A stretch of 64,000 nt of DNA from Acidobacteriota bacterium (lineage in GTDB: Bacteria > Acidobacteriota > Terriglobia > Terriglobales > Acidobacteriaceae), in the NCBI GenBank assembly GCA_003225055.1, contig QIAU01000124.1:62001-126000 (forward strand), read 5' to 3'. Every line of letters starts with the position of its first letter. The first letter of the stretch is position 1. The notes beneath the pieces are model-generated. The model saw only the letters and a program-made list of their open reading frames with translations, had not been told where the DNA came from and ran no database searches. A program made the position numbers and the translations under genes. Below, piece after piece: positions 6,340 to 51,882 of this stretch.

Positions 6340-7136
6340 TCGAATGTTCCGTAGGATTTATTTTTGCCGGAGCGCCTAGGATTTTACACGCTTTCAACTT
6401 CGTAACCTTGCGAGCGAAGATCCACCGGCAGTGACATCCGCCGCGATGCCCCCGCTTCCCGGGAACCACAACCGCTGCACGATGCTGGAGTGGTGCATGG
6501 CAATCGAGCATGACCGAAAGGATGGCAACAGTACGAAATTCTGCTGTGGCTTTTGATGGGGCGGCGGTTTGCTAATTCAATCTACAGTGTTCCTACACAA
6601 CGCCTTTCGCGCGATACGAATTCTGATGCCGCGTCGCGACGGGCGAACGATGGCAGGGACCTTCGATGGGCGTAGTAAAGAGACGTTGGACAAGTGGTTC
6701 TCGTTTTTGCACGAAACGAAGTGCGGCCTTTAGGGGGAAAGAGACCTCGGCGCGGACGATGAAACCGCTCTGATCACGCACTTCGGACCCCCCGGAACGA
6801 CGATTGAGGCGCTCGATGAACGTTTTTCACAAATTGCTCAGCCGGAAAATGCCGCGCAGTTTCGATGCCGAGCTGCTGCGCCGGAATGAGACAACGCATC
6901 GGCCTGAATTAAATTATAACCGTCAACACTTGACCTGACGGACAGCGCCGGCAAGTCTCAGGTGGTCGGACACGGGGACAGGATTCGGAGCCGGACATCG
7001 CCACCTTGCTGATTTAGCGACCACCCGCCCGGAATGACTGCGAGACGGATCAGCCAAAGCCAATGCACAACAAATATACTGACCGGGGGCGATTTTGCCG
7101 CCGCCGCTCGTCCAACCTGCACGTTGAAGAATAACC
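6340..7136. other. Long region without a supported gene
   Basis: Nearly 800 bases. One plus-strand frame starting at an ATG near 6651 runs about 80 codons with a single TAG, and could be a remnant, but it matches no family I recognise. The rest holds only short frames. No tRNA, repeat or clear terminator was found. Confidence 0.35.
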
Positions 7137-8018: not shown

Positions 8019-8114
8019 CTCAAACAAATGCGCGTGTCGATTTCTCCGAAGCCAGGGCGTCTGGTGCTGCTCCCGAGTAACGTAAGTGCTCACGGGCAAC
8101 TCGGAAAGGGTATT

Positions 8115-10073: not shown

Positions 10074-10202
10074 GTCACCACACGCCGGAAGACCCCGCCA
10101 ATCAACAACTTTCGTTATCGCCTACGTTTCACCCGCTTCGTATTGACCCCCCGGGGAGGTCTGGACAATTCTCGCTGCCGGACCTGATTTTGTGGAGGAG
10201 CT

Positions 10203-11216
10203 ATGACGAACCTGTTTCTAAGACAACTTCACTTGACTCTCCGCTGTTGCGCCTTACTGATTGCTCTTCTTCTTCCGCTTTCGGCGCTGGCCGATACCTG
10301 GCAACTGCAGGTCGGCGCGCAGAACGGTGACAAGGCACATCAAGCACTTGCCTTCTTGCCCAACGAGATCTGGATTCACTCCGGGGACAGCATTACGTGG
10401 ACATTTCAAACCAACGAGGTCCACACCGTCACTTTTCTGCAACCCGGGCAGGTGCGCCCGTCCCGCTTTGCCGGATGTCCGAGCGCCCCGAGCGGCGTCA
10501 CACCCGATTTCTCCGTCTTCGACGGCACCGCCTGTGTCAACAGTGGTGTGGTATCGAACAATAGCATGTTAGCGAGCCCGCCGACCTACACGGTGATTTT
10601 TCCCGTGACCGGCAGTTTTAAGTTGGTTTGCCTGGCTCACCCCAATATGACAGCCACTATCCATGTGCTGGCGTTGTCCACGCCGTTGCCCCACGATCAG
10701 GCCTTTTACGACAAACAGGCCAACCGGCAACGCGCCGATCTGCTTTCCGATGTGATGACATCCGCGCACAACCATCCCGGCTCCAATGACGTAACCGCCG
10801 GAGTGGGACACATTATGGGCAACGGCGGCGGAACTCAAACCATCTCGGTCATGCGCTTCATGGATGCGACGAAAGTGATCCATGTTGGCGAGACCGTGGA
10901 GTGGACGAGCGCAGAAGCAGTGACCAACCACACAATCACCTTCGGCCCCGAGCCCGACCCTCTAAACCAGATTCCGCCCTCTGCCAACGTCACGATGGAT
11001 GCTGATGGCGCCCGTCACGCCTTCATCACCTCTCCCTCTGACGTCGTACACTCCGGATTTATCACCCAGCCGCCGCAAGATCGTATCGGTCTGCCACAGG
11101 CCCCGTTGAGCGTGACGCGCTTCCGCGTGACCTTCACCCAGCCCGGCGTTTACCAGTACAAATGCGTGCTGCACGATGAGTTGGGAATGGTGGGAGAAAT
11201 CATCGTTTTGCGGTAG
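10203..11216 (+). CDS. Exported protein with two cupredoxin (plastocyanin-like) domains
   Basis: A GGAGGAG site precedes ATG 10203. Residues 1-30 are a signal peptide ending ALLLPLSALA. Domain 1 has the type-1 copper ligands His74 (NEVHTVTF) and Cys143, His146, Met149 (LVCLAHPNM). Domain 2 repeats the pattern: His243 (VTNHTITF), Cys321, His324, Met329 (YKCVLHDELGM). Both sites look complete, so the protein should carry two blue copper centres outside the cytoplasm. An electron-carrier role is the family expectation; the partner is unknown. Domain 1 is long (about 110 residues between first and second ligand), with an insertion containing a possible Cys92/Cys111 disulfide. A decayed single-domain cupredoxin lies at 16324. 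Confidence 0.85.
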   Translation: MTNLFLRQLHLTLRCCALLIALLLPLSALADTWQLQVGAQNGDKAHQALAFLPNEIWIHSGDSITWTFQTNEVHTVTFLQPGQVRPSRFAGCPSAPSGVTPDFSVFDGTACVNSGVVSNNSMLASPPTYTVIFPVTGSFKLVCLAHPNMTATIHVLALSTPLPHDQAFYDKQANRQRADLLSDVMTSAHNHPGSNDVTAGVGHIMGNGGGTQTISVMRFMDATKVIHVGETVEWTSAEAVTNHTITFGPEPDPLNQIPPSANVTMDADGARHAFITSPSDVVHSGFITQPPQDRIGLPQAPLSVTRFRVTFTQPGVYQYKCVLHDELGMVGEIIVLR

Positions 11217-11254
11217 CCGAAAAACCGTAAAGGCGCGGCATGGCGTGCGTTTAC

Positions 11255-11437
11255 CGAAAATTCCTTTCAGAGCCGTACTCGGCGGCATTGATTTCTTTGT
11301 CTGTACCGTCTACTCCGACTCGCAAAACCTTGACCAGCACCCCCCCGACCATTCGGCAGTTCGTCCCCCGAAGGCTTGTTCAGCTCGGCGAGATGGACGC
11401 TGTTGGCTTTTCCAGGAAATACACTGATAGCTTTCAT
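11255..11437 (-). pseudogene. N-terminal stub of a glucose 1-dehydrogenase-like zinc alcohol dehydrogenase
   Basis: From ATG at 11437 the minus strand reads MKAISVFPGKANSVHLAELN, the start of the archaeal/acidobacterial glucose dehydrogenase family. After a run of seven C on the plus strand (11340-11346) the frame shifts, and the next family segment appears one frame away (VLVKVLRVGVDGTDKEINAA). The rest of the ~350-residue protein is absent. It lies 30 bp downstream of the GH63 gene on the same strand, so glucosidase and glucose oxidation may once have been co-transcribed. Family call from memory of the N-terminal signature. Confidence 0.7.
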
Positions 11438-11466
11438 TTTTCGTGTCTCCGTTTACCTTGCTTTCG

Positions 11467-14151
11467 TTAGCCTGCGAACGCGATGCCAGCGGCTCTTTCG
11501 CGTTTTGTGGGTTTACCCGATTCGCCGCTTTGCTGCAGCATTTTGGCGACCAGGCCTGTCCAACCAGTCTGATGACTTGCGCCTGCGCCCCGGCCCGTAT
11601 CGGCGTGGAAGTATTCGTGAAAGAGAACAAGATGGTTCCAGTTGGGATCGGTCTGAAATTTGGTAATCTCGCGATAGACCGGGCGTTCGCCTTTTTCATC
11701 GCACAAGAAAATTTTCGAGAGCCGACGCGAGAGTTCGGCCGCCACTTCCCACAACGTAAGCCTGTTGCCGGAGTGCGACGGGAATTCGACTTTGAAGTCG
11801 TCGCCTAGATAGTGATGAAATTTCTGCAACGACTCGACCAGTAAGTAATTTACCGGGAACCAGATCGGCCCGCGCCAGTTGGAATTTCCGCCGAACAGGC
11901 CGGTACTCGATTCCGCAGGTTCATAGGTGACTCGATAGTCCATCCCGTTCACCGCCAACGTGTAGGGATGATCTTTGTGGTATCGGGAAAGCGCGCGTAT
12001 GCCGTAGGGGGACAGAAATTCGTTCTCATCGAGCATGAGTTCCAGCACCCGGCGCAGCTGGTCGCGCCCAACAATGGACAGCAACCTTCTTTCCGCTTTG
12101 CCGCGAGTGCGCATGCAAGCCACGTTGCCGATCAGGTCGGGGCGATTGTCGATGAACCATTCCAGACGGCGCTTGAATCCGGGCAGACGGTGCAGCAGTT
12201 CGGGTTCGAGCGTCTCTACCGCGAATAGCGGGATAAGACCGACCATGGAGCGGATCCGCATGGGATATTTGCGCCCATCGGGGAAGCGCAGGACGTCGTA
12301 AAAGAAACCGTCCATCTCATCCCAGAGTCCAATGCCATCATTGCCCCGATGATTCATGGCATGGGCGATGTAGATGAAGTGTTCCCAGAATTTGCTGGCG
12401 ACGTCTTCGTAGGCGGGATCTTCGTTGGCCAACTCCAGGGCAATGGCGAGCAGGTTCAGCGTGTACATGGCCATCCAGCTAGTGCCGTCGGACTGCTCGA
12501 TGGAACCGCCGGTCGGCAGAGGAGCGCTACGGTCGAAGACCCCAATGTTGTCGAGACCGAGAAATCCGCCCTGGAAGATATTCATTCCATCGGCGTCCTT
12601 GCGGTTCACCCACCAGGTGAAGTTCAGGAGGAGTTTGTGGAACACGCGCTCCAGGAATGCGCGATCCCCTTTGCCGCTGCGCTTCTTGTCGATCTTGTAC
12701 ACGCGCCACGCCGCCCAGGCATGGACTGGTGGATTCACATCTCCAAATGCCCACTCATAAGCCGGGAGCTGCCCGTTGGGATGCATGTACCACTCGCGCA
12801 GCAGCAGGACGAGTTGCTCCTTGGCGAATTCACAATCCACCAGCGCGAGTGGGACGCAGTGGAACGCCAAATCCCAAGCGGCGTACCAGGGATACTCCCA
12901 TTTGTCGGGCATCGAGATGACGTCTGCGTTATAAAGATGGGGCCACTGGCTGTTGCGCCCCCCCTTTCGCTCAGCCGGAGGAGGCGGACTGCCGGGGTCG
13001 CCTTCGAGCCACTGCCGCACGACGTAGTGATAGAACTGCTTGGACCAGAGCATTCCGGCAAAGCCTTGGCGCATCACGTTCTGGGCGTCGGCGGAAAGGT
13101 CCGGGGGGATAACAGTGCGGTAAAACTCGTCCGCTTCATTTTTGCGCAGAGCGAACAGCCGGTCGAAACCGTCAAACGCCGCCTCACTCACTCCAGAGAA
13201 TTCAATATCGGTGAGCCGCAACCGGAGCGTCACGCTGGCGCCGGCGGGAATTTGCAAGTTGTAGTGTGCGGCCGCCTTGGTGCCCATGGGCTGGGGGACA
13301 ACGGCGTCGCGTCTGCCGTTCACAATATAGTCGTTGATTCCGTCCTTCACGCACGCGCAGCGGTTCTCAACCCCGAACAGACGCTTCAGGTTCGTCTCAT
13401 TTTCGGTGAAAAGCAGTTGGGGCGAACCTTCGCAATAAAGCCATCGTTTCCCCAAAGTTCGCTGGTCTAGCTCAATGCCTCCGGGGATCTGTCGCATGTC
13501 GGGACGAGCCTCATCGCTGCCCCGCGACCACGTGTTCCGGAACCATATTGTCGGCAACAGGCGCAGCGGCGCCGCTTCGGGACCACGGTTGACCGCGGTG
13601 ATCTTGATCAAAATGTCTTCAACGTCGCCCTTTGCGTATTCGACGAATACGTCGAAGTAGCGGTCGTCGTTGAACACGCCCGTATCGAGCAGTTCGAATT
13701 CAGGCTGGTCCTTTCCGCGACGGCGGTTTTCTTCGACTAGCTGCGAATAAGGAAACTGAGATTGCGGGTACTTATACAGATACTTCATGTAGGAATGGGT
13801 GGGAGTGCTGTCCAGGTAGAAGTAGTATTCCTTCACATCCTCGCCGTGGTTGCCTTCGTTTCCTGTAAGGCCGAACAGGCGCTCTTTCACAATGGCATCG
13901 CGCTCATTCCACAGGGCTAGGGCAAAGCAAGTGAATTGGTGGCGATCGGAGATCCCGGCGAGCCCGTCTTCGTTCCAGCGATACGCCCGGGAGCGGGCGT
14001 GATCATGAGGCAAGTACTCCCAGGCATTGCCGTGCGGGCTGTAGTCCTCCCGGACCGTGCCCCAGGCACGTTCGCTGAGGTAGGGACCCCAGCGCTTCCA
14101 ATGCTTCTTGCGTTGTTGCGATTCCTGCAGCCGAACCTCTTCTTGAGTCAT
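11467..14151 (-). CDS. Glycoside hydrolase family 63-type glucosidase
   Basis: An 894-residue protein matching the bacterial glucosidase/mannosylglycerate-hydrolase-like (GH63, six-hairpin toroid) family. Family stretches seen: [20 protein letters not shown] at the N-terminus, [31 protein letters not shown], and [20 protein letters not shown], where the Asp lies in the region expected for the general acid. No signal peptide is visible, so the enzyme is probably cytoplasmic and acts on alpha-glucosides. Length is typical (about 880). A glucose dehydrogenase remnant follows immediately downstream. Confidence 0.9.
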
Positions 14152-14164
14152 GTTCGTGCTCCGA

Positions 14165-14630
14165 TCAACTCAGATCACGTGCAGCAACCAGGCGAACCCA
14201 TCCGCGATTTGCGTTGCTTTCGAGGGGATGCCCGTCAGGGTCTTTGAAGAAAAACGCTCGGATTCCGGCGGCGTTCTTGTTCCAGTCGGGCAGGCGCTGA
14301 GGTGCCGAGAAAGTGTGCTCAACCTTATTCTTCATTCTTCCGGAGCCAGGCATAGGCTTTATCCATGTCACTCACGATGATCGCAAGGTGCTGGAATGAG
14401 CCGCCATTGCTACGCGCATTCAGAGCAATCGGGCGCCCTTTTCGGAACAAGATACTCCGTCAGCTGGATATATTCATGCCCCAGTCGCATGCGGACGATG
14501 CGCACGCGTGCTCCGATGACACCTTCCAGATGGTCGTAGCTCTCACCAGCGACCTCGATATCAGACACCTTTTGAAAACTGAGCACGCCGGAGTAGAAGT
14601 TGACGGCACAATCCAGTCCGAGCATTCCGG
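14165..14630 (-). pseudogene. Broken VOC/glyoxalase-fold protein
   Basis: Three reading frames together give a vicinal-oxygen-chelate protein. Segment 1: AVNFYSGVLSFQKVSDIEV ... YIQLTEYLVPK. A one-base excess in the T4 run at 14439-14442 shifts the frame. Segment 2 continues as ...IALNARSNGGSFQHLAIIVS, then DMDKAYAWLRKN. A 7-bp tandem duplication (ATTCTTC twice, 14327-14340) shifts it again. Segment 3 finishes NKVEHTFSAPQRL ... FFFKDPDGHPLE. The N-terminus is also degraded. Two independent lesions, one of which is not a homopolymer slip, make a true pseudogene likely. Confidence 0.8.
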
Positions 14631-35109: not shown

Positions 35110-36012
35110 CTAGGCCGCCGCCGATTTGCCCTCATACAGCGGAACAAATTCCTCCGTCACGAACCTTTCGTAAGCCGTCGGCGTCGTGTTCTCCGTCGAG
35201 CGCGGCTCCAAAGCTCGCATATAGTTTGCGTTCAAAGCGGCTGACATTTCCAGAATGAGATCAGCCATATTCGATGACATGCCAAGCTGGATCAAGGCTG
35301 CCCGCACCTGCTGATCCGGTGCTTCAGTGTATCGGAGGTCGGGTTTGCCCACCGCTCTCCCGATGATCTGGGCGACTTCGATCATGCTGAGGTTCCGCTG
35401 CCCCAGCAATTCGCGTGTCTGCTTCTGGTGGAAGTCCAGATTCAACAACGCACTTGCGGCTGTTTCGCCGATATCGCGCGTGGCGATCATGGGAAGCTTC
35501 AGGTCGGGGCGCAATGGGCCGACCGCCATGCCTGTCATTCGGATGATGCCAATTTGTGCGGGCGTATTTTCCATGAAGTAGCCAGCACGCAGGTGCAACA
35601 CATTTAAGCCGTCAATTCCATTAAGCTGTTCCTCAAGGTAATGCAATCCCACGACTGGACCTGTCTTCTCAGGCTTGTCCGCCCTTATGCTGCTCAGCGT
35701 GACCACGTGCGTCACGCCCGCACTCCGAAGAGCCGTGGCAATCGCATCACTCACACGGTTTTGAAATGCCCGAAAATCGGAGCTAGCGAGGCTGGGAGGC
35801 ATGATCACGTACACGGCCTTCGCTCCCGCAAAAGCCTTGGTGATACCCGCTGTATCGATGAGATCGGCAGCAAACGGCTCTGCGCCTTCCCCGACAAGAG
35901 CCTTCAGACGGTCAGGATTCCTGCCCACTACGCGAACCTTCTTACCTCGGATTAAGAGAGCCTTCGCAACAACGCTTCCGGTATGACCAGTTGCACCAGT
36001 GACAACGTACAT
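35110..36012 (-). CDS. NmrA-like NAD(P)-binding protein (atypical SDR)
   Basis: 300 residues. GGAG six bases before ATG 36012 favours this start over the ATG 12 bases upstream. The N-terminus MYVVTGATGHTGSVVAKALL has the GxxGxxG nucleotide-binding loop. VRVVGRNPDRL suggests NADP(H). IMPPSLASSDFRAFQNRVSD and VVTLSSIRADK follow the NmrA/QOR2-like pattern. No catalytic Tyr-x3-Lys is obvious; some members are redox sensors rather than enzymes. Single gene. Confidence 0.83.
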   Translation of the reverse strand: MYVVTGATGHTGSVVAKALLIRGKKVRVVGRNPDRLKALVGEGAEPFAADLIDTAGITKAFAGAKAVYVIMPPSLASSDFRAFQNRVSDAIATALRSAGVTHVVTLSSIRADKPEKTGPVVGLHYLEEQLNGIDGLNVLHLRAGYFMENTPAQIGIIRMTGMAVGPLRPDLKLPMIATRDIGETAASALLNLDFHQKQTRELLGQRNLSMIEVAQIIGRAVGKPDLRYTEAPDQQVRAALIQLGMSSNMADLILEMSAALNANYMRALEPRSTENTTPTAYERFVTEEFVPLYEGKSAAA

Positions 36013-36741
36013 AGCACTCTCCATCTGGTGTTTCGATTTGCCTACCGTCCGTGGGGCTTCAATAATACAGCCTCTGCCAATTAGGACGCGCCAGCGAGTA
36101 CTACACCAAGGCCTTTGAGGCGCGGAAACACGCCAGCGACGGCGCGAGGCTGCTGATCACCGGCAACGACGGTTCAAACGTCGTGGCGCCCAGCCATTCG
36201 GGCGCAAACTGGCGCGCAATCGCAGGCAAACGGAGAAGGCCGTTACCGAGCAGAGCGTCGAACCGCCCGCTGCATTCGGAACTGGCTGGCTGCTACAAAA
36301 TCAAGTGGCTGGATAGAAGAGGGTCGCCCCGCGAAGCTCCCGTGACCGCGGAGCTGGTTGATCTGTCAACATGGGCTGGGCTGGCTCATTTCCGACCGTC
36401 GGCGTATGGTGTGTCATGCTCGAACTCGTCTGACCTACTTGCGAAGTACATAAAAAGTCGACAAATTGGTAGGCTAACCCGGTTCAAGCCTTCAAAGCAT
36501 CGCTGTACTTGAGCAACAAGCCCGCGCTGAAGCGGGGTGCCGTCTAGCCCGAGCCAGCGTGGGCACATGGGAGGAGCGAGTGCGGTGCGAGCGTTACCTG
36601 GCAAGTATTTTTCCGCAAGCTGCTCCTCGCAGTCAAAATGCATGCGAGACTATGGCTAGAATGGCCCGGCATAGTAATGCCCTTAGCAGCAACGGCGCAG
36701 ACTATGCTGCGCCGGAATCTGTATAACTCTGGATTGCAGGC
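36013..36741. other. Region without a supported gene
   Basis: About 730 bases. Frames on both strands (for example 36183-36512 plus and 36386-36643 minus) have no recognisable domain. The last 60 bases probably include the promoter of the MFS gene. Confidence 0.35.
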
Positions 36742-37974
36742 ATGGGTCTGCCAAGCGTTTCCAACAAACGTCGTTGGTTCATCATCGGCCTGCTCTTTAC
36801 AGCCTCATTAATCAACTATCTAGACCGGGCTGCGATTTCCTTCGCGCTGCCGTGGATCGCAAGAGATTTCCATCTGACTCCGGAAAGCAAGGGATTGCTG
36901 CTCTCTTCTTTTTTCTGGTCCTACGCGCTGATGCAAATTCCCATTGGCTGGTCGGTTGACCGCTTCGATTTGCGCTGGCTCTATCTTGGAGCATTTGTCC
37001 TTTGGTCATTCGCACAGGGCCTTACCGGATTGGCGGATAGCCTCGCAGTTTTGGTTAGTTTGCGCATTCTTCTCGGCGTGGGGGAGTCAATCTACCTTCC
37101 GGGAGGGAGCAAGATCGTCAGCTTGCTGTTCACGAGGAAAGATCGCGGTCTGCCCTCAGGACTTTTTGATTTCGGCACCCGAACGGGTTTGGTCGTTGAA
37201 GGCTTCCTGGTCCCTTGGCTCTTGATGCGTTATGGATGGCGCCACACTTTCCTTCTGCTAGGCCTTGTGGCTCTCGGGTGGATAGTCCCGTGGTTTTGCG
37301 CTTTTCCATGTCGGGTGCGGACAGTAAACAGCACCGTGACCTCACCAGTATCCGAGAAGGCGCTGTCCATTAATTGGAAGGCAGTTGTCGACCGCAATTT
37401 GCTGGGCATCTGCCTAGGATTCTTTTGTTTTGATTACTACTGGTATGTGCTGGTCACGTGGTTGCCTGACTACCTCGTTACGGCCCGGCACCTCAGCATC
37501 GTACAGGCAGGTTTTTATGCCTCTGTCGCGTTCTTTACCTTCGGGCTTGCTGAACCGATTGGAGGATGGATCGCCGACAGGCTCATCCGACGAGGCTGGA
37601 ATGAAACCCGAACTCGAAAGGGAATGGTGACGGTGGCTTTCTTTATGGGTGTCTTTCTCACACCAGCCGTGCGCGCCTCCGATACCAGGATAGGCATTGG
37701 GCTATTGATGGGAGCTTCCTTGGTCGGTCTCTCTACCGGCAATCTGCTCGCAATTCTCCAGAGCTGTGCGCCGGGCGAGCAAATTGGCATTTGGACGGGA
37801 GCGGAGAACTTTGCAGGGAATCTCGCCGGAATCCTAGCCCCACTTGCGGTGGGATTCTTGATTACGCGGGCCGGCTCACATGCTCCGGGTTTTGAGCTGG
37901 GCTCCATCGTTTTGCTTCTGGGACTGCTCCCCTACTGGTTTCTAGTCGGTGAATTGAAAACCGCTTCGTTTTGA
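36742..37974 (+). CDS. MFS transporter, anion:cation symporter (hexuronate/glucarate-like) type
   Basis: 410 residues with about 12 helices. The N-terminus RRWFIIGLLFTASLINYLDR, then AAISFALPWIARDFHLTP, is typical of the ACS family (ExuT/GudP-like). LRILLGVGESIYLPGGSKIV matches the family motif after helix 4. Expected substrate type is an organic anion such as a sugar acid; not proven. It stands alone. Confidence 0.85.
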   Translation: MGLPSVSNKRRWFIIGLLFTASLINYLDRAAISFALPWIARDFHLTPESKGLLLSSFFWSYALMQIPIGWSVDRFDLRWLYLGAFVLWSFAQGLTGLADSLAVLVSLRILLGVGESIYLPGGSKIVSLLFTRKDRGLPSGLFDFGTRTGLVVEGFLVPWLLMRYGWRHTFLLLGLVALGWIVPWFCAFPCRVRTVNSTVTSPVSEKALSINWKAVVDRNLLGICLGFFCFDYYWYVLVTWLPDYLVTARHLSIVQAGFYASVAFFTFGLAEPIGGWIADRLIRRGWNETRTRKGMVTVAFFMGVFLTPAVRASDTRIGIGLLMGASLVGLSTGNLLAILQSCAPGEQIGIWTGAENFAGNLAGILAPLAVGFLITRAGSHAPGFELGSIVLLLGLLPYWFLVGELKTASF

Positions 37975-40729: not shown

Positions 40730-42322
40730 ATGGGACAGTTCACACAGTTGCCGAGCATCAGCCACTACACCGCCTACCGACCGCGTCCTTTCACGCGCGA
40801 GGAGCGGGACCGCGTCACCATCTTGTACGGGGGCCTGACATGGAAGCACGAACGGCTAATGCAGGGCGCTCTCCACAACTTACAGTACAATGCCGAACCC
40901 CTGCCCAACATTGCCCGCGACGATCTGGACGCCGGAAAGGAATTGATCGACGTAGGCGCGTGTTGCCCCACCATTTTCACCACTGGAAGTCTGGTCAACT
41001 TTCTTAAGAGGGAAGTCACTCTACATGGGAAAGAAGAGGTAACGAACAAATATGTTTTTCTGACAGCCGGAGCTTGTGGACCGTGCCGCTTTGGCCAGTA
41101 TCACGAATCATATGCCATGGCTCTTGATGGCCTGGGTCTGCGCGACTTCAGGCTTTTTCTCCTGGCCCAGGACGAACTCGACCAGGGTTCAAACGGGGGC
41201 GGGGGCCTAGACATCAATATGCCGCTCAGCCTCGGGCTTATTTGGGCCATTCTCTGCGCAGACTTGCTGATGGACCTGGAGTACATGACGCGACCCTATG
41301 AGATCAATCCTGGTCAGACGGAACGCGTACTAAAAGAGAGTGTCGAGTATTTATATGAAGTGTTTCGGAATCGACCCGATCATGGCAAAAAGTACGGGGC
41401 GTTGGCGTGGCACTTGTTGAGCAACTACTTCGCGCGTGCCTTGCGTGAGGTGCGCAAGAAGTGGGACGTCATCGAAGTCGATCGCCTGCGGGTGAAAGCA
41501 AAGGTGAAAGTCACGGGAGAGTTCTGGCTACAGACGCACGAGGGCGAGGGCAATTACAACATCAAGCGCTGGCTTGAACAGGAGGATTCCGAGGTGGTGC
41601 CTCCGCCTGTCGCGGTATGGCTGCATTACCTTCTACATCCCACTATCCGCAAACTTGAGCATCGGAACTCGAAGGCAAAACATCCTCACGCCCAAGCACT
41701 AGCACTGCATACGCTGGAGCGCATCTACCGCGCCACCTATAACCGACTTCGCAGGGCGCTGGCGAATCTTCCCAACGAACTGCCCGACCAGGAAGAACTG
41801 AAGCGGCTGGCAGAACCCTTCTATCACTTCGAGCTTCGCGGGGGAGAAGGACACATGCTGATTGGGAAAGCGCTTCATGCTTATCACCACAAAAAAGCCC
41901 ACATGATCTGCGAACTCTCTCCCTACTCGTGCATGCCCAACACGATGTCTATCGGCGCGATGGCCAATGTCATTGGCAAATATCCCGACCTGCTTTATGC
42001 ACCCATTGAGGTGAAAGGCGATTCGGAAGTGCATGCCCTCTCCCGTTGCCAGATGATCCTCACCGAGGCAAAAATGCGGGCGCAGGCGGAATTCGAAGAC
42101 GCCTTAAACAAGACAGGCCTGACGGCCGAAGTCATTCGCCAGTACGAGGCACAGCACCCGAAAGTACGCAGTGCTACTTACCGCGTGCCGCATCTTGGCT
42201 ATGCAGGAACTGCCGCCAATTACGTCCTGCATCTCGCTCGAAGCTGCCGACTCCGCCCGGAGTTGAGCCAGGACCCGAACGATAGAAGAGAAGGGGAAGC
42301 GAGGACGGCCGCTTATGTCTAA
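40730..42322 (+). CDS. 2-hydroxyacyl-CoA dehydratase (HgdB)-like protein
   Basis: 530 residues, strong ribosome binding site. The protein matches the HgdB/BcrB-like side of the 2-hydroxyglutaryl-CoA dehydratase superfamily in its DUF2229-associated form: VGACCPTIFTTGSLVNFL (Cys78, Cys79), TAGACGPCRFGQYHESY (Cys116, Cys119), CELSPYSCMPNTMSIGAMAN (Cys394, Cys401) and Cys440 (ALSRC). These are candidate ligands for an Fe-S cluster, possibly of the double-cubane kind described for related proteins. The stop overlaps the activase start by 8 bp. The substrate is unknown. The family is best known from anaerobes; here it lies in a genome with aerobic-looking functions. Confidence 0.8.
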   Translation: MGQFTQLPSISHYTAYRPRPFTREERDRVTILYGGLTWKHERLMQGALHNLQYNAEPLPNIARDDLDAGKELIDVGACCPTIFTTGSLVNFLKREVTLHGKEEVTNKYVFLTAGACGPCRFGQYHESYAMALDGLGLRDFRLFLLAQDELDQGSNGGGGLDINMPLSLGLIWAILCADLLMDLEYMTRPYEINPGQTERVLKESVEYLYEVFRNRPDHGKKYGALAWHLLSNYFARALREVRKKWDVIEVDRLRVKAKVKVTGEFWLQTHEGEGNYNIKRWLEQEDSEVVPPPVAVWLHYLLHPTIRKLEHRNSKAKHPHAQALALHTLERIYRATYNRLRRALANLPNELPDQEELKRLAEPFYHFELRGGEGHMLIGKALHAYHHKKAHMICELSPYSCMPNTMSIGAMANVIGKYPDLLYAPIEVKGDSEVHALSRCQMILTEAKMRAQAEFEDALNKTGLTAEVIRQYEAQHPKVRSATYRVPHLGYAGTAANYVLHLARSCRLRPELSQDPNDRREGEARTAAYV

Positions 42323-44615
42323 CAAGGCCTTGTTCCAGATTCAGCCCCTGCTGATCGATCCCTGCCCGACACAACCGTGTGCGGCCCCGGAAGCGACGGT
42401 GAATGAAGCTGGGGGAATGGTGTGTGGCATAGATGTGGGGAGCACCACCTGCAAATATGTGCTCGCCTCTTCGGACGGCGAGGTGCTAGCGCAGGCCTAT
42501 GAGCGCCACAACACCAAACAGGCAGAGAAGGTGTTGGAGTTCCTTGCCCGGCTCGAAAGCGAGTACGGTCTTACACCCGAACGAGACCGCATCTTCTTCA
42601 CGGGATCAGGAGCGGGGATTATCGCTCCTCTTGTCGGCGGAAAGGTGATTCAGGAAGTGGTGGCGGTAGCCGCAGCGGTTGAGAAGCTGCATCCTTCAGT
42701 GCACTTCGTAAGCGAGATCGGCGGCGAAGACATGAAGACGATCTTTTTCCACGGCAACGGGCCGAGCAAGAGTAAGCAGGTTCTGATGCAAAGCGCCTGT
42801 TCCGGCGGCACAGGCACCTTCATTGAGAAGACAGCTCGCAAATTGGAAATTCCGCCGGAGCAGCTGTCAAGAATGAAGTATTCCGGTTACACGCTGCATA
42901 AGATCAGCAGCAAATGCGGCATCTTCGCCGAAGCAGATGCCAATACCTTGCTGAAAGCCGGGGTTTCGGTCGAGGAGATCATCGCCTCTTTATTCGAGGC
43001 GGTGGTGTACCAGAACCTAGCTACCCTCACGCGTGGTAATACTCCGTCTCCCGACATTCTGCTGCTGGGCGGCCCGAACCTGTTCTTTATCGGCCTCCAG
43101 GAGGCATGGCGGCATCACCTGGTCAGACTCTGGCAGGAGCGCAAGATCACGTTGCCGGGCGACGCCGATCCGGCCTCCCTGATCCGGGTTCCCGAGAATG
43201 CTCTTTATTATGCCGCCCAGGGTTGCATCGAAATCGCCCGCAGGGAGCCAAACTTGGTCGGCGTTTATCAAGGCGCGGGTCAATTGCGATGGTGGATTGA
43301 AGAAGGCCAACACGAGGAGAAAAAGAAACTCGGCCGAGGTGGGTTGTGGAAGGACCGGGAAGAGCTGGAGTCGTTCAAAGCACGCTACGGAGGCAATGGC
43401 CACGGCTCTAAAAATGGCAATGGGCATCGATCCTCGCCAACTGCTCCGAGTGTGGAAGAAGCCGGGAATCTCGGACCGGTGGGCGTGGGTTGCGATTTTG
43501 GATCCACGACGGCAAAAGCCGTCTGCCTCTCGCCTCAGAAAGACTTGCTCTTTTCTTGCTATGCACTCAGCAAGGGAAATCCCATCGAAGACGCCAAGGC
43601 TCTATTCCGGCAGATTCGCGGGGCGGTTGGCAATGGAGAGATCCTGGGGTTGGCGATTACCGGCTATGGCAAAGACCTATTGAAGAACATTCTCGGCGCC
43701 GACTGCCCGGTGGTGGAGACTATCGCTCATGCCACGGCTGGCTTGCACTTCTTTCCTGACGCCGATTGCATTTGCGACGTGGGTGGGGTGGACGTCAAGA
43801 TCATGATCCTGAACAACGGCGCGGTAACCGATTTCCGGCTGAACTCCCAGTGCTCGTCTGGCAACGGAGCTTTCCTGCAGGGGGTGGCTGAGCGCTTCAA
43901 CATTCCCATGAACGAAATGGCTGACGGAGCCTTTCGTGCCCAGGCGATGCCCCAACTCTCCATGGGATGCGGAGTCTTCCTGCAAAGCGACATCGTCAAC
44001 CAGCAGCGCAAAGGGTGGCAGGCCGATGAGATCCTGGCCGGTCTCTGCGCCATTCTTCCATTAAACGTCTGGATTTATGCGGGTGGCTTAAACAATCTTC
44101 AGCAGGTAGGGAAAAAGTACATCCTGCAGGGCGGCACGCACAGAAATCTTGCCGTAGTAAAGACCCAGGTGGATTTCATTTTGTCCAAGATTCCCGAGGC
44201 CGAAGTTGTGGTACATCCCTACTCCGGCGAAGCCGGCGCCATCGGTGCTGCCATGGTAGCGTTGGAATGGGCCGAGAAAGGTGGTCGAACTGCGTTTCGA
44301 GGGTTCGATGCGATTGAGAAGTTATCGTATAAGACAGCCACCTCGATCGATACAGTCTGTCATTGGTGTCCTGTCAACTGTCAGCGCAGTTTCATTGACG
44401 TTGAATTAGCCGAAGGAAGCGGACGTGAATGGAGCAAGGTTCCGCTTGCGAAGGGATGGGAGCGCGTTATTGTGAACAACTCCTGCCCCAAGGGTCTGGT
44501 GGAAGACCTAAACGAGATGAAGGTCATCAAGGCCGGAATCGAGAAGACAAAAAATGCCTATCCCAATATTGCAGACATGGTTCGCAAAGAAGCATTCCGC
44601 CGCGCCGCCAATTAA
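42315..44615 (+). CDS. Tandem ASKHA ATPase (acyl-CoA dehydratase activase, two fused modules)
   Basis: 766 residues. Module 1 (~35-340): CGIDVGSTTCKYVLASSDG (phosphate loop), QSACSGGTGTF and SKCGIFAEADANTLL (the two Cys that bind the bridging [4Fe-4S] in HgdC). Module 2 (~395-660): VGCDFGSTTAKAVCLS, NSQCSSGNGAFLQGVAERF and MGCGVFLQSDIVNQQ. Both modules keep ATP and Cys motifs, so one chain could form a pseudo-dimer around one cluster, while HgdC is a homodimer. The C-terminal tail adds CHWCPVNC and NNSCPKG, another possible cluster site. Middle gene of a coupled three-gene unit; the expected job is ATP-driven electron delivery to the HgdB-like partner. Confidence 0.87.
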   Translation: MSNKALFQIQPLLIDPCPTQPCAAPEATVNEAGGMVCGIDVGSTTCKYVLASSDGEVLAQAYERHNTKQAEKVLEFLARLESEYGLTPERDRIFFTGSGAGIIAPLVGGKVIQEVVAVAAAVEKLHPSVHFVSEIGGEDMKTIFFHGNGPSKSKQVLMQSACSGGTGTFIEKTARKLEIPPEQLSRMKYSGYTLHKISSKCGIFAEADANTLLKAGVSVEEIIASLFEAVVYQNLATLTRGNTPSPDILLLGGPNLFFIGLQEAWRHHLVRLWQERKITLPGDADPASLIRVPENALYYAAQGCIEIARREPNLVGVYQGAGQLRWWIEEGQHEEKKKLGRGGLWKDREELESFKARYGGNGHGSKNGNGHRSSPTAPSVEEAGNLGPVGVGCDFGSTTAKAVCLSPQKDLLFSCYALSKGNPIEDAKALFRQIRGAVGNGEILGLAITGYGKDLLKNILGADCPVVETIAHATAGLHFFPDADCICDVGGVDVKIMILNNGAVTDFRLNSQCSSGNGAFLQGVAERFNIPMNEMADGAFRAQAMPQLSMGCGVFLQSDIVNQQRKGWQADEILAGLCAILPLNVWIYAGGLNNLQQVGKKYILQGGTHRNLAVVKTQVDFILSKIPEAEVVVHPYSGEAGAIGAAMVALEWAEKGGRTAFRGFDAIEKLSYKTATSIDTVCHWCPVNCQRSFIDVELAEGSGREWSKVPLAKGWERVIVNNSCPKGLVEDLNEMKVIKAGIEKTKNAYPNIADMVRKEAFRRAAN

Positions 44616-45816
44616 AGATCGCTCGCAGCTGCGCGTAGGAATCCCCAAGGTACTGAACATATGGAGCACCCACCAGTTCTGGGTAGGTTTCCTGAAGGCA
44701 CTTGGGATCTCCCCGGAAAACATTATCTTCAGCTCGGACACTTCCGAAGAGCAGGGCCGCGAATTTGGAAAAGGGCGTGGGACTGTCGACTGCTGCTACC
44801 CAGTGAAGTGTATGAGCGGCCATTACGGTGAACTGATCTTCGGACAAAAGAAGAAGATCAATATTCTGCTTAGCCCGATGATTCATTCGTTGCCCTCGAT
44901 TCTTCATGGTCACGTCGTAGACACGGTCACCTGCACCCGAGTCATGGCCGGGCCGGAAAATATCAAGGCCGGATTCATGAAGGAGAATGACGTATTCGTC
45001 GAGAACGGGATCGTCTACGCTTCCCCCTTCGTGAGTCTTGGGGATCGCCAGCTGGTTTCAGGGCAACTGTATACCTCGCTGAAAGACATTCTCAATTTAG
45101 ATCCCGATGAAACGGAACGAGCCGTTCAGGCCGGCTACCAAGCTCTCGAGAATTTCACCACACGGGCCCGCCAGCGCAGCCGTGAGATTCTCGCCTGGTG
45201 CGCACAAAATCAGAAGCCATGCATTCTCGTTCTCGCTCGTCCCTATCACATGGATACCGGTATTGGCCACGAGATCGAAGCCGAGTTGCAGGCGCACGGT
45301 TATCCCATTCTGTGGCTGCAGTATCTGCCTGGCGATGCCGACCTGATGAACTGGCTTTTTGCAGAAGACATGCGGAAAGGACGCATTAAGACTCCCTTCG
45401 ATATCTCCGACGTATGGACGTCCTCTTACAGCAGCAACACCAACGAGATCATGTGGGGAGCGAAGGTTGCGGCACGTTGCCCGTGGATTACCTGCGTGAT
45501 CCGGCTTTCGAGCTATGAATGCGGGATGGACCAGCCAACCTACACGCCCACCCAGAAGATCGTCGAGGCGACGGGAACGCTGTTTTTCAAGTTCGGTGAT
45601 TTGGATTCCACGAAGCCTGCGGGCAGTATCAAAATCCGCGTAGAAACAATCGTTCACTACCTAGCGAAGTACTCCGGCAGCATCATCGGACGAAAACTGA
45701 GTTGGCTATCGGCCGATTGTCCATTACCACGGACATCGAGAGAGCGCACACCCACTCGGGCTATGGCCGACGAGGCTCGGGCGGCAGAGCCAAAGCAACT
45801 CGTCGTTCTCCACTAG
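44554..45816 (+). CDS. DUF2229 / acyl-CoA dehydratase activase-related protein
   Basis: 420 residues from ATG 44554, overlapping the activase gene by 62 bases; no later ATG exists before the conserved VGIPKVLNIWSTHQFWVGF, so the true start is uncertain. Family segments: GTVDCCYPVKCMSGHYGEL, THE-type region VVDTVTCTRVMAGPENIKAG, LVLARPYHMDTGIGHEIEAE, then CPWITCVIRLSSYECGMDQ. Several Cys are in the positions expected for Fe-S binding. In many bacteria this domain is fused behind the activase in one very large protein together with the HgdB-like part; here the three parts are separate, and the HgdB-like gene comes first. The last ~40 residues are not conserved-looking. Confidence 0.83.
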   Translation: MPIPILQTWFAKKHSAAPPIKDRSQLRVGIPKVLNIWSTHQFWVGFLKALGISPENIIFSSDTSEEQGREFGKGRGTVDCCYPVKCMSGHYGELIFGQKKKINILLSPMIHSLPSILHGHVVDTVTCTRVMAGPENIKAGFMKENDVFVENGIVYASPFVSLGDRQLVSGQLYTSLKDILNLDPDETERAVQAGYQALENFTTRARQRSREILAWCAQNQKPCILVLARPYHMDTGIGHEIEAELQAHGYPILWLQYLPGDADLMNWLFAEDMRKGRIKTPFDISDVWTSSYSSNTNEIMWGAKVAARCPWITCVIRLSSYECGMDQPTYTPTQKIVEATGTLFFKFGDLDSTKPAGSIKIRVETIVHYLAKYSGSIIGRKLSWLSADCPLPRTSRERTPTRAMADEARAAEPKQLVVLH

Positions 45817-46887: not shown

Positions 46888-47428
46888 AACCCTCCCCGGC
46901 TGAACCTAGATTCTGCGGGTAGAAGCCGACATCGAATGGCTTGATATTGCGCTCCGGCGGCCGGTTTTGCAAACCCAGACGCCCTTTATTTGCCCTTTAT
47001 TAGCCCTGTCATACGGACCAAAACGGGGAAGCTACTTACGGCCGGTTTTTTTAGCGATGGGCACGGGTTTCGCGCCGAAACTGTGGATGTTCTCGCAGAA
47101 TTCCCTTCCTGTGCGGAAATCGAGCAGACGGCCTCTCCGTTCGCTGCACAGACCGCCCGGGCGGAATAGGGGTCCTCCAAATTCTAGATCTTTGCGTCCA
47201 AGATCTGGATTGGCGTACGGGTAGCGGGAAATGCCCTGCAGATCCAGTCGCCTTAACTTCCCTTAAGTTATGGAGAAACCTGACCATAGCGCCGGGAGAG
47301 GCATCAACATTCTTTGGCCAGCGCCGTGCAGCTCCAAAGGTATCTGGCGCGGCGGGAATCGACTAAGTCATGCTCTACCTCGGTAATTGCGGGTCCCTTT
47401 GCCGGCTGCGTCGTCAGGAGATCGTATC
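46888..47428. other. Region without a supported gene
   Basis: About 540 bases. Only short frames. A GCCCTTTATT-type direct repeat (near 46981-47003) and a weak AACTT/AAGTT dyad near 47255 are the only structures seen. The promoter of the PilT-like gene should be here. Confidence 0.35.
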
Positions 47429-48658
47429 GTGTCCACTCTCGCCAAACCGACGTTTACAGAAAACAACAGCACCTCCGATGCAGCGGTTGCCTCGCGGGTT
47501 CCAACACCGGCTTTACTGTCCGCTATGCTGCGCAGTTCTGAGAAGATAAGCGATCTGATTTTCTCGCCCGGCCGACCCCCGCTGGTCGAGCGGGATGGAC
47601 GCCTGGTACCGGTGCGCATAACCCAGCTCCCGGTGCTGACTGCGGAGCACACACGGCAAATTGCCTCCGACCTGATCGGCAACAACACCCAGGCACTGAC
47701 CGGTCTTCGAGAACAAGGTTCCTGCGACGTCTCCTACAGCCTGGCGGGCAAGTCCCGCTTCCGTGTCAACGTATTCATGCAGCGGGGCAGCTGTGCCATC
47801 GTAATGCGGGTGATCCCCAACACTGTGCCCGATTTTGCGGTCCTCAACCTACCACAGCAGCTCGCCGAAGTGGCTGACCTGCGCAACGGCATTGCGCTCG
47901 TCACCGGCCCTACCGGTTCCGGGAAGTCTTCCACGTTGGCGGCCATCATTGACCTGATCAACCAGAAGCACTCATATCACATCGTCACCATCGAAGATCC
48001 GATCGAATTCCTGCACCCGCACAAGAACTGCACGATCCACCAGCGCGAACTGCATAGTGATACGCCCAGCTTCGCATTCGCGCTGCGCGCTGCTCTCCGA
48101 CAAGCTCCCAAAGCCATTCTTGTAGGCGAGATGCGGGATAAGGAAACCATTGAGATCGCCATGGAAGCAGCCGAGACCGGCCACTTGGTCCTCTCTACCT
48201 TGCACACCATCGATGCCTCCAAAACGGTGGAGCGCATCGTGGGTGTCTTCCCGCTGGCCGAGCAGCATATGATTCGCAACCGCCTGGCCAAGAGTTTTCG
48301 CTGCATCGTCAGCCAGAGGCTCGTTCCACGGAAGGATGGATGCGGAAGAGTGGCGGTCATAGAGATCCTGAAGTCAACTCTCCGCACGCGAGAGTACGTG
48401 GAGAGAGGAGAAGCGGAAGGGAAGACGCTGCTGGACGCGATGCGGGCCGGCACGACAGAAGGTATGCAACACTTCGATGGCGAAATCGAAAAGCTCATCC
48501 GCGCTGGCTCAATTGATCTCGAAACTGGGCTGACATACTCCACGAATCCCGGGAACCTTCGTCTGGAGTTGGCTGATTTCGTGGGTTCTCCCCCGGCCAC
48601 CCAGCCATCGGCGCCATCGAAGGAAGCAACAGATACTGAAGTGGAGATCGAACGGTAA
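47429..48658 (+). CDS. PilT-like type IV pilus retraction ATPase
   Basis: 409 residues from GTG 47429, with AGGAG nine bases upstream. Type II/IV secretion ATPase motifs: Walker A GPTGSGKSS (~residue 161), Asp box TIEDPIEFLHPHKNC, Walker B ILVGEMRDKETIEIAMEAAE, His box GHLVLSTLHTIDASKTVERI. The N-terminal part (SEKISDLIFSPGRPPLVERD) fits PilT/PilU. The expected role is hexameric cytoplasmic retraction motor; no other pilus genes are in the window. The C-terminal ~25 residues are Ser/Pro/Thr-rich. Confidence 0.87.
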   Translation: MSTLAKPTFTENNSTSDAAVASRVPTPALLSAMLRSSEKISDLIFSPGRPPLVERDGRLVPVRITQLPVLTAEHTRQIASDLIGNNTQALTGLREQGSCDVSYSLAGKSRFRVNVFMQRGSCAIVMRVIPNTVPDFAVLNLPQQLAEVADLRNGIALVTGPTGSGKSSTLAAIIDLINQKHSYHIVTIEDPIEFLHPHKNCTIHQRELHSDTPSFAFALRAALRQAPKAILVGEMRDKETIEIAMEAAETGHLVLSTLHTIDASKTVERIVGVFPLAEQHMIRNRLAKSFRCIVSQRLVPRKDGCGRVAVIEILKSTLRTREYVERGEAEGKTLLDAMRAGTTEGMQHFDGEIEKLIRAGSIDLETGLTYSTNPGNLRLELADFVGSPPATQPSAPSKEATDTEVEIER

Positions 48659-49329: not shown

Positions 49330-50229
49330 CTAGCGACGTTTTAGAGCCTCGAGCTCATCCAGGGTACGAGGCCAGTCGGATTGCAGCAGCCGGGACAGGC
49401 TTCGATCCGCCAGAAGTCGGCCGCCGGTTTGGCAGGGAGCACAATAATTGGTCTCGTTGTCAGCGTAACGAATACGCTGAATTTTCTCGCCGCACCTCGG
49501 ACACGACTCCCCATAGCGTCCGTGAACGGCCATGCCCTTGCGGAATGCGGTCACCTTTTCCGGAAACCCAGTCTCCGCTTCTGCGCGCAGCTGGTCGATC
49601 CAGAACCTGAGCGTGTCGCGCGTCGCCGCGAACAGCCGCTCCCACTCATCCGGTTTTAGCTTTTGCGTTAGGGCGATAGGAGACAATCGGGCAGCGTACA
49701 AGATCTCGTCTGAATACGCATTGCCGATGCCACTGAGTATGCGCGGGTCGGTAAGAGCTCTCTTGAGCGTGCGGTTTTCAGCCGTCAGCGCGTCACGAAA
49801 TGAGCTGAGATTGCTGGTGAAGACGTCGATTCCCCCAGGATCTACGGACTGCAATGCCTCTTCGCCCCTGAAGACATAGAGCGATGCACGATGCTTTGTG
49901 CCGACTTCCGTGAGCACGAGAGAGCCGTTGGGAAAATCGAAAGCTGCCCGGCTCTGGCGACCCGCCAGCTTTGCTCCTCGGGAGCGCCAGTGCAAGCGGC
50001 CGGCAATCATCAAGTGCAGCACCAGCCAGAGATCGCCCTCCACTCCAATTGCGATTCGTTTGCCGATTCGCCGCAGATCGCGGACAATGTGCCCTTCCAC
50101 ATCCGTAACCGAAGGTTTTGCCGTACGAAGCAAGAAGGGGCTCGCCAGCCGTATTTGCTGGATGGGCTGTGCCCCGATCCGTGGTTCAAGCGCACTGAGG
50201 TAGGCGGCAATATCCGGCAGCTCCGGCAT
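49330..50229 (-). CDS. Fpg/Nei-family DNA glycosylase
   Basis: 299 residues. The N-terminus MPELPDIAAYLSALEPRIG has Pro2 as the catalytic nucleophile and Glu3. Lys in IGKRIAIGVEG is the conserved beta-hairpin lysine. Helix-two-turn-helix: DPRILSGIGNAYSDEILYAA. The C-terminal zinc finger has CPRCGEKIQRIRY and NYCAPCQTGG. Base-excision repair of oxidised bases is the family role. PELPDI rather than PELPEV suggests a divergent Fpg/Nei-like subgroup, so substrate range may differ. It is divergent from the S4 gene (54 bp apart). Confidence 0.9.
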   Translation of the reverse strand: MPELPDIAAYLSALEPRIGAQPIQQIRLASPFLLRTAKPSVTDVEGHIVRDLRRIGKRIAIGVEGDLWLVLHLMIAGRLHWRSRGAKLAGRQSRAAFDFPNGSLVLTEVGTKHRASLYVFRGEEALQSVDPGGIDVFTSNLSSFRDALTAENRTLKRALTDPRILSGIGNAYSDEILYAARLSPIALTQKLKPDEWERLFAATRDTLRFWIDQLRAEAETGFPEKVTAFRKGMAVHGRYGESCPRCGEKIQRIRYADNETNYCAPCQTGGRLLADRSLSRLLQSDWPRTLDELEALKRR

Positions 50230-50766: not shown

Positions 50767-51882
50767 GTGCGGCTTCGAAAACGCTTAGTTGCTTTCATTA
50801 TCATTGCTCAATCGTTTCTTCTTTTGGCGCATTTTGTCCTGTATGAGACGTGGACATTTTCGTCTCCGAACGGCCATAGTGCTGGACCACTGTGGATCAA
50901 CCTGGTTGTCGGCTTTCTGTCAGTGACATTCGTTCTCGCTTCGCTACTCGCCTTTCGCTATACAAATGCCTTTGTGCGCACGTTTTACAGGGTTGCTGCG
51001 GTTTGGGTGGGATTACTGAGTTTCCTCGCTATTGCCGCCGCTTGCTGCTGGATTATTTTCGCGGTGGCGGTTCTGGCTGGGCTGAATGCCGATTTCCATC
51101 GGATAGTGGAACTGCTGTTCGGAGTTGCAGCAGTAACGGGATTCTGCGGGATTCTTAATGCAAGCTGGACGCGAGTCACGCGAACCACGGTGCGGCTCGC
51201 AAACTTGCCGGCCGCGTGGCGTGGCCGAAAAGCAGCCCTGATCAGCGATTTGCATTTAGGACATGTGCGGAATAGTGGTTTTCTGCGACGTATGGTTGCG
51301 CAGATTTTGAGGGAAGAGCCACACGCAATTTTTATTGCCGGTGATTTGTATGACGGCACGGCCATCGACGCAGCGCGGGCAGCGGAGCCATTGGCCCTGC
51401 TATCGGCGTCGCACGGCGTGTATTTCGTTGCGGGGAATCATGAGCAATTTGGGGATGACAGTAAATACCTTCAGGCCATTGCAGCGGCTGGTGTGCGTGT
51501 GCTCAACAATGAAAAAGTGGAGGTAGACGGTTTGCAGATTATTGGTGTGCCGTACCGGAATGCGTGGCGCCACAACTCGTTGGCGTCGGCCCTCCACAGC
51601 ATCCGTTTGGATCGCGACCGTGCGAGCATTTTGTTGACACACGCACCCGACCATCCCGAAATCGCCGAGGCCGCGGGCATTTCTCTGCAACTTTCCGGGC
51701 ATACCCACCTCGGCCAGTTCATACCTTGGAGCTGGATAGCGCGGCGAATTTACCGGCAGTTCGTATACGGCCTAAGCCGGATCGGGAAAATGCAGGTCTT
51801 TACTTCGAGCGGAGCAGGAACGTGGGGACCACCCCTACGACTTGGATCGAATCCCGAGATAGTGGTGTTGCAGTTCGAGTAA
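50767..51882 (+). CDS. Membrane-anchored metallophosphoesterase
   Basis: 371 residues from GTG 50767. The first ~150 residues contain about four hydrophobic helices (LVAFIIIAQSFLLLAHFVL, LWINLVVGFLSVTFVLASLL). The calcineurin-like domain follows: DLHLGH (~161), GDLYD, GNHEQFGDD, LLTHAPDHPE and GHTHLGQF, all metal-ligand motifs present. This is the YkuE/YaeI-like group, where some members act on UDP-diacylglucosamine-type or phospholipid substrates; the substrate here is unknown. Confidence 0.87.
   Translation: MRLRKRLVAFIIIAQSFLLLAHFVLYETWTFSSPNGHSAGPLWINLVVGFLSVTFVLASLLAFRYTNAFVRTFYRVAAVWVGLLSFLAIAAACCWIIFAVAVLAGLNADFHRIVELLFGVAAVTGFCGILNASWTRVTRTTVRLANLPAAWRGRKAALISDLHLGHVRNSGFLRRMVAQILREEPHAIFIAGDLYDGTAIDAARAAEPLALLSASHGVYFVAGNHEQFGDDSKYLQAIAAAGVRVLNNEKVEVDGLQIIGVPYRNAWRHNSLASALHSIRLDRDRASILLTHAPDHPEIAEAAGISLQLSGHTHLGQFIPWSWIARRIYRQFVYGLSRIGKMQVFTSSGAGTWGPPLRLGSNPEIVVLQFE

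Follow-up and report, generated by a model that had tools for sequence, protein, structure and literature searches.

Several described systems combine an activase with a protein of the HgdA/B fold: HadBC with HadI, HgdAB with HgdC, the class I benzoyl-CoA reductase BzdNO with BzdPQ, and DCCP with DCCP-R. In the benzoyl-CoA reductase, three Cys of BzdO bind the catalytic [4Fe-4S] cluster and six Cys of BzdN bind an [8Fe-9S] cluster (PMC11971306). A further system, Ger (glycerol ester reductase)/PlsA (plasmalogen synthase), has been described in Thermotoga maritima (Tmari_0479), Desulfatibacillum alkenivorans and Clostridium perfringens (PlsA-PlsR). PlsA homologues with two activation domains are reported to have been validated as Ger, forming alkyl ethers on heterologous expression (PMC13274423), and likewise Ger and alkyl ethers are described together with expression in E. 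coli, T. maritima PlsA in modified form and a route proposed to run through reduction, protonation and dehydration (PMC11150832, PMC8788747). Here, a module of three genes, P1, P2 and P3, was analyzed in a stretch of 64,000 nucleotides (the window) from an Acidobacteriota bacterium (assembly GCA_003225055.1, contig QIAU01000124.1, positions 62,001 to 126,000). The module very probably encodes an ATP-driven Fe-S reductase, and its favored reading, to which we give about an even chance, is a split Ger/PlsA-type enzyme that would reduce glycerolipid acyl esters to ethers.

As is reported for Ger (PMC13274423), P2 carries two PF01869 domains ('BB'), and full-length homology was found to giant proteins with P2-, P3- and P1-like parts, similar in size to the Ger/PlsA giant of about 150–159 kDa (PMC11150832); the likely chemistry in both cases would be ATP-driven ester reduction. 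By the descriptions of Ger/PlsA, the module differs from it in consisting of three proteins with P1 first, in a conserved P2/P3 overlap, in extra Cys and in hosts with haem-copper oxidases. The kind of enzyme is known; what is new is the three-part, Cys-rich form in oxygen-respiring hosts from soil and hot springs, within a poorly described superfamily. The features of the module are as follows:

40730..42322, + strand: P1, 530 residues, predicted HgdA/B-type fold half outside the Pfam families (open reading frame, fold match, Cys conservation)
42315..44615, + strand: P2, 766 residues, tandem ASKHA activase, BcrAD_BadFG twice (PF01869, match to HgdC 1hux, alignment)
42417..43214, + strand: first activase half of P2, about residues 35–300, with Cys 162/201, both invariant in 66 rows
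43485..44282, + strand: second activase half of P2, residues 391–656, with Cys 513/552, both invariant in 66 rows
44358..44486, + strand: Cys motif C682-x2-C685-x3-C689 ... C724, a possible extra Fe-S site after the activase halves (conservation)
44541..44546, + strand: GAGAAG inside P2, a putative weak Shine-Dalgarno-like site for P3 (upstream letters of relatives)
44554..44615, + strand: out-of-frame P2/P3 overlap of 62 nucleotides (nt), with a conserved P3 ATG (gene layout of relatives)
44554..45816, + strand: P3, 420 residues, DUF2229, predicted second HgdA/B-type fold half, with core Cys 81, 127 and 323 (PF09989, fold)

Intact genes, tandem activase and protein folds

A first-pass annotation, made from the sequence alone, had noted three overlapping intact genes, and the coordinates of the open reading frames (ORFs) confirmed this, with overlaps of 8 nt between P1 and P2 and 62 nt between P2 and P3. 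When P1–P3 were compared with six relatives of the same three-gene layout (type A, see below), the ratio of nonsynonymous to synonymous substitution rates (dN/dS) fell between 0.038 and 0.082 for 14 of 17 comparisons; the remaining three had a saturated dS and a pN/pS of 0.135–0.171. Since dN/dS is low against these relatives, the genes are more than chance ORFs. They are genuine, intact genes on which strong purifying selection acts.

By its sequence, P2 is a tandem HgdC-type activase, each half having an ASKHA domain and two Cys. The Pfam profile search bore out the tandem arrangement first proposed (BcrAD_BadFG twice, PF01869, 1.4e-68), and the second half matched HgdC (1hux) at 6.3e-26 in a PDB sequence search. 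C162, C201, C513 and C552 were invariant in the P2 alignment (A6), made up of 65 of the 78 loci with P2 plus the window (66 rows). In the same rows, in a region beyond the part alignable with solved activases, C689 was invariant and C682, C685 and C724 were at least 90% conserved; the CxxCxxxC motif was also present in two giants (L055, L057) and in the type-C proteins described below.

P3 was assigned to DUF2229 (PF09989, 1.2e-38) with no other Pfam match, and no family was found for P1 in Pfam or NCBIfam. Among the 25 families listed for the P1 alignment, PF06050 (HGD-D) matched none of the 77 rows, the best E-value for any family being 0.011, and neither P1 and P3 nor their profiles gave a relevant match when searched against PDB sequences. 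Structures were predicted with AlphaFold2 at a mean pLDDT (predicted local distance difference test) of 86.2 for P3 and 85.6 for P1. In Foldseek searches against the PDB, the top 11 matches for P1 and for P3 were all chains of DCCP, 2-hydroxyacyl-CoA dehydratase or benzoyl-CoA reductase, those of P1 including DCCP, HadC and BzdN; from rank 13 onward other proteins were mixed in for P3, and TM-scores were low (0.29–0.45). Alignment of P3 with VIA-align gave Z-scores of 13.8 for BzdN (4.3 Å, 273 residues) and 13.6 for HadC, the best unrelated row reaching 8.5, and that of P1 gave 10.6 for HadC (4.6 Å, 279 residues), 9.8 for BzdN and 9.5 for DCCP, with 7.5 for the best unrelated row. Additionally, the P3 profile aligned with HGD-D proteins at an E-value of 1e-4, C323 falling on the conserved KFCDP Cys. 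Profile comparisons of P1 with P3 (0.07) and with HGD-D (0.16) were not significant.

On the basis of these Foldseek and VIA-align matches, P3 and, less strongly, P1 are predicted to be two HgdA/B-type halves with the fold of 2-hydroxyacyl-CoA dehydratase, benzoyl-CoA reductase and DCCP. The folds agree with the ATP-driven Fe-S reductase of the first-pass annotation as a class, but the DUF2229 protein appears by fold as the second half and not as an accessory. Such a role would account for how a large family, so far poorly described, is built.

With HadBC–HadI and HgdAB–HgdC the module shares the activase family, the HgdA/B fold of both halves and a three-Cys core; it differs in that a single chain contains the activase dimer and an additional Cys domain, and in that P1 falls outside PF06050 and P3 belongs to DUF2229. 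Like BzdNO–BzdPQ it combines a heterodimer with an activase pair, and its fold matches BzdN, but the P3 residues aligned with the distal double-cubane positions are not Cys and a PF06050 match was not found. Fold and activase resemble those of DCCP and DCCP-R, whereas the module would be a heterodimer of distant halves, and canonical double-cubane ligands were not found in P3.

The same folds and activase would also suit an enzyme with a CoA-ester substrate, either a 2-hydroxyacyl-CoA dehydratase or one resembling benzoyl-CoA reductase; among the NCBIfam models TIGR00241 matches P2, and the benzoyl-CoA reductase models match it far below cut-off. We regard this as unlikely, given that PF06050 matches neither P1 nor its relatives, that P3 matches DUF2229 only, that no CoA-pathway gene recurs beside type A and that the window's own genome contains no PF06050 protein. 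Very improbable is an activation or repair factor that would switch on another metalloenzyme reductively instead of acting on a metabolite. P2 is activase-like and weakly resembles methanogenesis marker 15 (NCBIfam), but P1 and P3 are predicted to be full HgdA/B-type halves like catalytic subunits, and no metalloenzyme recurs beside type A.

Giant, fused and split relatives

Three giant relatives of 1408–1527 residues (L055, L056 and L057) contain parts resembling P2, P3 and P1, arranged in this order. Profile searches matched them at 4e-35, 2e-27 and 4e-13 (P1) and at 4e-41, 1e-43 and 2e-18 (P3), and the P2 profile also matched all three giants tested; by single-sequence BLAST the P1 part was seen in L055 only. 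From their architecture, we take these giants to be probable PlsA/Ger proteins. Among the other relatives, type A, to which the window belongs, has three ORFs with P1 first (31 of 31 loci where both P2 and P3 were seen). In type B, P1 is followed by a fused P2-P3 protein of about 1200 residues (all 35 loci where both were seen), and in type C the fused P2-P3 protein is followed by a separate HgdB-like protein. In the P1 tree, types A (39 rows) and B (41 rows) each formed one side of a branch, with SH-aLRT values of 97 and 99 by a quick method. Judged by its sequence, the window module is a member of a distinct clade, type A, with extra Cys and the P2/P3 overlap. Both the P2-P3-P1 order of L055, L056 and L057 and the gene-order survey agree with the original proposal of a split giant whose HgdB-like part has moved to the front. 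A literature search, whose range did not extend to the primary Ger, PlsA and DCCP papers, returned no description of a split type-A system.

Type B, found in Solibacter, Bryobacteraceae and the window's own genome, resembles the window module with 38–50% identity over all parts and P1 first, and differs from it in the fusion of P2 and P3 and in the absence of P1 C79, C394 and C440 and of P3 C80, C86, C309 and C314. The window's genome carries one type-A and one type-B copy, the latter on contig C114. In a plasmid collection, P3 was detected in nine records, all giants and all below 60% identity.

Other arrangements were also observed. At L013 (G005, 4342–14609) a type-B and a type-C module adjoin in divergent orientation. 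Three Aquificaceae relatives with 46–51% identity (L173, L174 and L175, in G454, G456 and G506) are split at another point: P2 is cut near residue 613, P3 carries the CxxC part as a fusion, and P1, which could be located in two of the three, comes last there. The only full-length P1, from L173, shows the Cys pattern of type B.

The P2/P3 overlap measured 56–80 nt in 27 of 31 type-A loci, and exactly 62 nt in 14, with P3 in the +1 frame of P2 in 28 of the 31; the P1/P2 spacing was not conserved, ranging from −79 to +167 nt over the same number of loci (automatic start choice). A +1 frame over such a distance, together with the fusion observed throughout type B, might indicate programmed frameshifting that joins P2 and P3 into a fused product as in type B. 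This is decidedly improbable in view of the start region of P3. In 29 rows, the window included (L061, L063 and L093, with broken or mis-set P2/P3 frames, were left aside), the P3 ATG was at the same xAT-G site in 27, the window among them, and a stop in the P3 frame was present within 90 nt upstream in 28. GGAG, GAGG, AGGA or AAGG preceded the ATG in 17 rows, or in 26 if GAGA is counted, the window having GAGA only. Moreover, P3 lies on a different contig from P2 in the Hydrogenobacter metagenome-assembled genome (MAG) G446 (RSWP5). The overlap is read, from these sequence features, as putative internal initiation that would couple P2 and P3. By stop-to-stop frames, no such overlap was found in an Aquificaceae genome outside the set (L176, G461). 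At L089 (G446, 11669–12919), a gene that by eye is diaminopimelate-decarboxylase-like follows P2 in the place expected for P3.

Conserved cysteines and the cluster type

The Cys listed in the first-pass annotation were all found at their positions: 78, 79, 116, 119, 394, 401 and 440 in P1, the activase pairs and C682/C685/C689 in P2, and 80, 81, 86, 309 and 314 in P3. P1 has two further Cys, 176 and 506. Conservation was analyzed in alignments of P1 (A4; 76 of the 80 named loci plus the window, without L073, L094, L109 and L122) and of P3 (A5; 63 of the 66 loci with P3 plus the window). In P1, C78, C116, C119 and C401 were present in 37/37 type-A and 40/40 type-B rows; C79 was found in 36/37 type-A rows, C394 and C440 in 37/37, and all three in 0/40 of type B. 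In P3, C81, C127 and C323 were present in 31/31 type-A and 33/33 type-B rows, while C80 (27), C86 (18), C309 (19) and C314 (27 of 31 type-A rows) were found in 0/33 of type B. The giants and C-type relatives whose alignments were inspected keep P3 C81, C127 and C323, and also P1 C78, C119 and C401, the end of C_L022 and the giants L056 and L057 not having been inspected residue by residue for the P1 Cys.

As a core set, the first list therefore stands only in part. P1 C78, C119 and C401 and P3 C81 are common to giant or C-type relatives and P1 C116 to types A and B, but the other seven residues of P1 and P3 are confined to type A, and the core P3 Cys 127 and 323 had been missed. Homologues lacking most of the listed Cys had been named as what would speak against the proposal; for part of the list this is the case, type B being without those seven.

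In the predicted structures, the three core Cys of P1 and of P3 are located at or beside helix starts, as PMC11971306 describes for BzdN. Type A has seven near-invariant Cys in P1 and up to seven in P3, and an apparent six or seven Cys per half raised a double cubane as a candidate. With DCCP among the best fold matches, the module could then be a DCCP-like double-cubane reductase of small molecules, the extra type-A Cys building an enlarged cluster. The distal-cubane positions of BzdN are given as Cys 36, 263 and 293 (PMC11971306), but those of 263 and 293 aligned with non-Cys residues of P3 in the profile alignment, and the first beta-alpha loops of both P1 and P3 were free of Cys (sequence and DSSP of the models). 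By DSSP, C394 and C314 lie in strands, C440 inside a helix and C309 at a helix end, and not at the three cluster-facing helix starts. The double-cubane candidate, left with no distal ligands in P3 by the BzdN mapping, was reduced to a rival that we consider improbable. Since the distal positions align with non-Cys residues, single clusters appear more likely in P3 than a canonical double cubane. The alignment of P1 to the HGD-D profile for these positions was not significant.

P3 C80 and C314 co-vary, with C/C in 27 of 31 type-A rows and S/G in the same four Aquificaceae-type rows; because all four exceptions belong to one clade, this is weak evidence of contact. As a guess, the role of the clade-specific Cys is perhaps oxygen tolerance.

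Candidate function, hosts and neighboring genes

Taken together, the Ger/PlsA papers, the ether lipids reported for Aquificaceae and Planctomycetaceae, the presence of type B in Solibacter and the TetR/MFS neighbors make ester-to-ether reduction the best reading. A lipid-ester substrate and, with two activation domains, an alkyl-ether product are inferred from these papers. The substrate and the use in an aerobe, both left open by the first-pass annotation, now have candidates in glycerolipid esters, from the literature, and in aerobic hosts, since COX1 was detected in all eight acidobacterial type-A genomes, but also in 8 of 14 controls. POR_N was detected in 8/8 of these genomes and in 10/14 controls.

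Type A accounts for 38 of the 80 named loci, mostly Acidobacteriota by the labels of the MAG records. Seven loci are labelled Aquificaceae, Aquifex or Hydrogenobacter, an eighth (L092), labelled Acidobacteria, is listed in that family, and single or few MAGs are labelled Bacteroidetes, Planctomycetia, Spirochaetes or Binatia. Of 396 Acidobacteriota genomes, 63 contained a P3 relative, and type B was seen in Solibacter/Solibacteraceae MAGs. In the Aquificaceae family of G446, a P2 homologue was detected in 43 of 64 genomes (33 at 67% identity or more, 10 at about 42–60%, L173, L174 and L175 among the latter), and in eight Aquificaceae-type MAGs all 14 PF01869 matches over cut-off were type-A P2. 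Abundant ether lipids are reported for Aquifex pyrophilus (PMC5487899) and dialkyl glycerol ethers for Aquificaceae and Planctomycetaceae (PMC5487899, PMC5552659). Ger homologues are reported in Planctomycetota, Spirochaetota and Bacteroidota MAGs (PMC11868695). The aerobic Solibacter usitatus, a maker of branched glycerol dialkyl glycerol tetraethers (brGDGTs), is described as having PlsAR homologues and no ElbD (PMC10087280). Directly upstream in the 35 type-A loci with an upstream gene, a TetR regulator, weakly like the acyl-CoA regulator FadR, was found in nine and a Spns-like major facilitator superfamily (MFS) protein in eight. No universal partner emerged from the neighborhood survey.

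Several points weigh against ester-to-ether reduction. P1 has no HGD-D match and is only remotely related to the giants (25% identity). Membership of PlsA/Ger is judged by the architecture described in the papers, and according to these papers Ger and PlsA are indistinguishable by sequence, work in anaerobes and were expressed anaerobically. Type A is rare in Acidobacteriota (7 of 396 genomes by identity, the window's own included), and 21 of the 64 Aquificaceae genomes are without a P2 homologue. No lipid gene consistently adjoins the type-A loci, and the FadR and Spns likenesses are far below curated cut-offs or distant. Several Acidobacteria of subdivision SD4 are reported to carry alternative elb genes (PMC10087280), and the ether-lipid reports concern Aquifex, Planctomycetaceae and some Acidobacteria, as distinct from the MAGs and the window's organism.

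In a split Ger/PlsA-type reductase, P2 would take electrons from a donor guessed to be ferredoxin-like and, at the expense of ATP, transfer them singly to a heterodimer of P1 and P3. Its two fused activase domains would be bridged by a [4Fe-4S] cluster held by Cys 162/201/513/552, next to the extra Cys site at 682–724, and in both P1 and P3 an Fe-S cluster would sit between two Rossmann-like domains. P3 is guessed to be the catalytic half because three core Cys would leave an open iron site as in BzdO/HadB; here electrons and protons would reach the ester carbonyl, and loss of water and further reduction would yield the ether. More tentatively, type A may represent a glycerol ester reductase in three parts that tolerates oxygen and supplies Aquificaceae, and some of the aerobic Acidobacteriota, with their ether lipids; the clade Cys and the frame overlap would then be adaptations for assembly in oxygen-respiring cells.

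Bacteria that live in oxygen produce ether lipids, among them the brGDGTs that serve as palaeothermometers, and the activity shown for two PlsA/Ger enzymes in the papers was obtained by anaerobic expression. The present candidate, compact with its three genes and found both in aerobic Acidobacteriota and in Aquificaceae, would allow a direct look at whether ATP-driven Fe-S reduction of esters operates in hosts of this kind.

At two loci (L072, 12847–15540; L076, 12856–15600), a radical SAM/SPASM protein and two small proteins are encoded behind P3 on the opposite strand. The radical SAM protein is weakly like many radical SAM families, including the tetraether synthase Tes at 3e-9; the 233-residue small protein had no Pfam or NCBIfam match and the 234-residue one no NCBIfam match. 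The window's genome also encodes two more single-domain BcrAD_BadFG proteins (G000:C216:9035-9901 and G000:C255:13378-14259), unrelated to the module by place. In the window, an MFS transporter gene (36742–37974) is located 2.7 kb upstream; its nearest model is a D-galactonate transporter, below whose cut-off it falls, and owing to this likeness and the distance it was not counted as a linked Spns-like MFS gene. The other neighbors in the window are an NmrA-like protein (35110–36024), a T2SSE type II/IV secretion ATPase (47387–48658), an Fpg-type DNA glycosylase (49330–50229) and a metallophosphoesterase (50767–51882).

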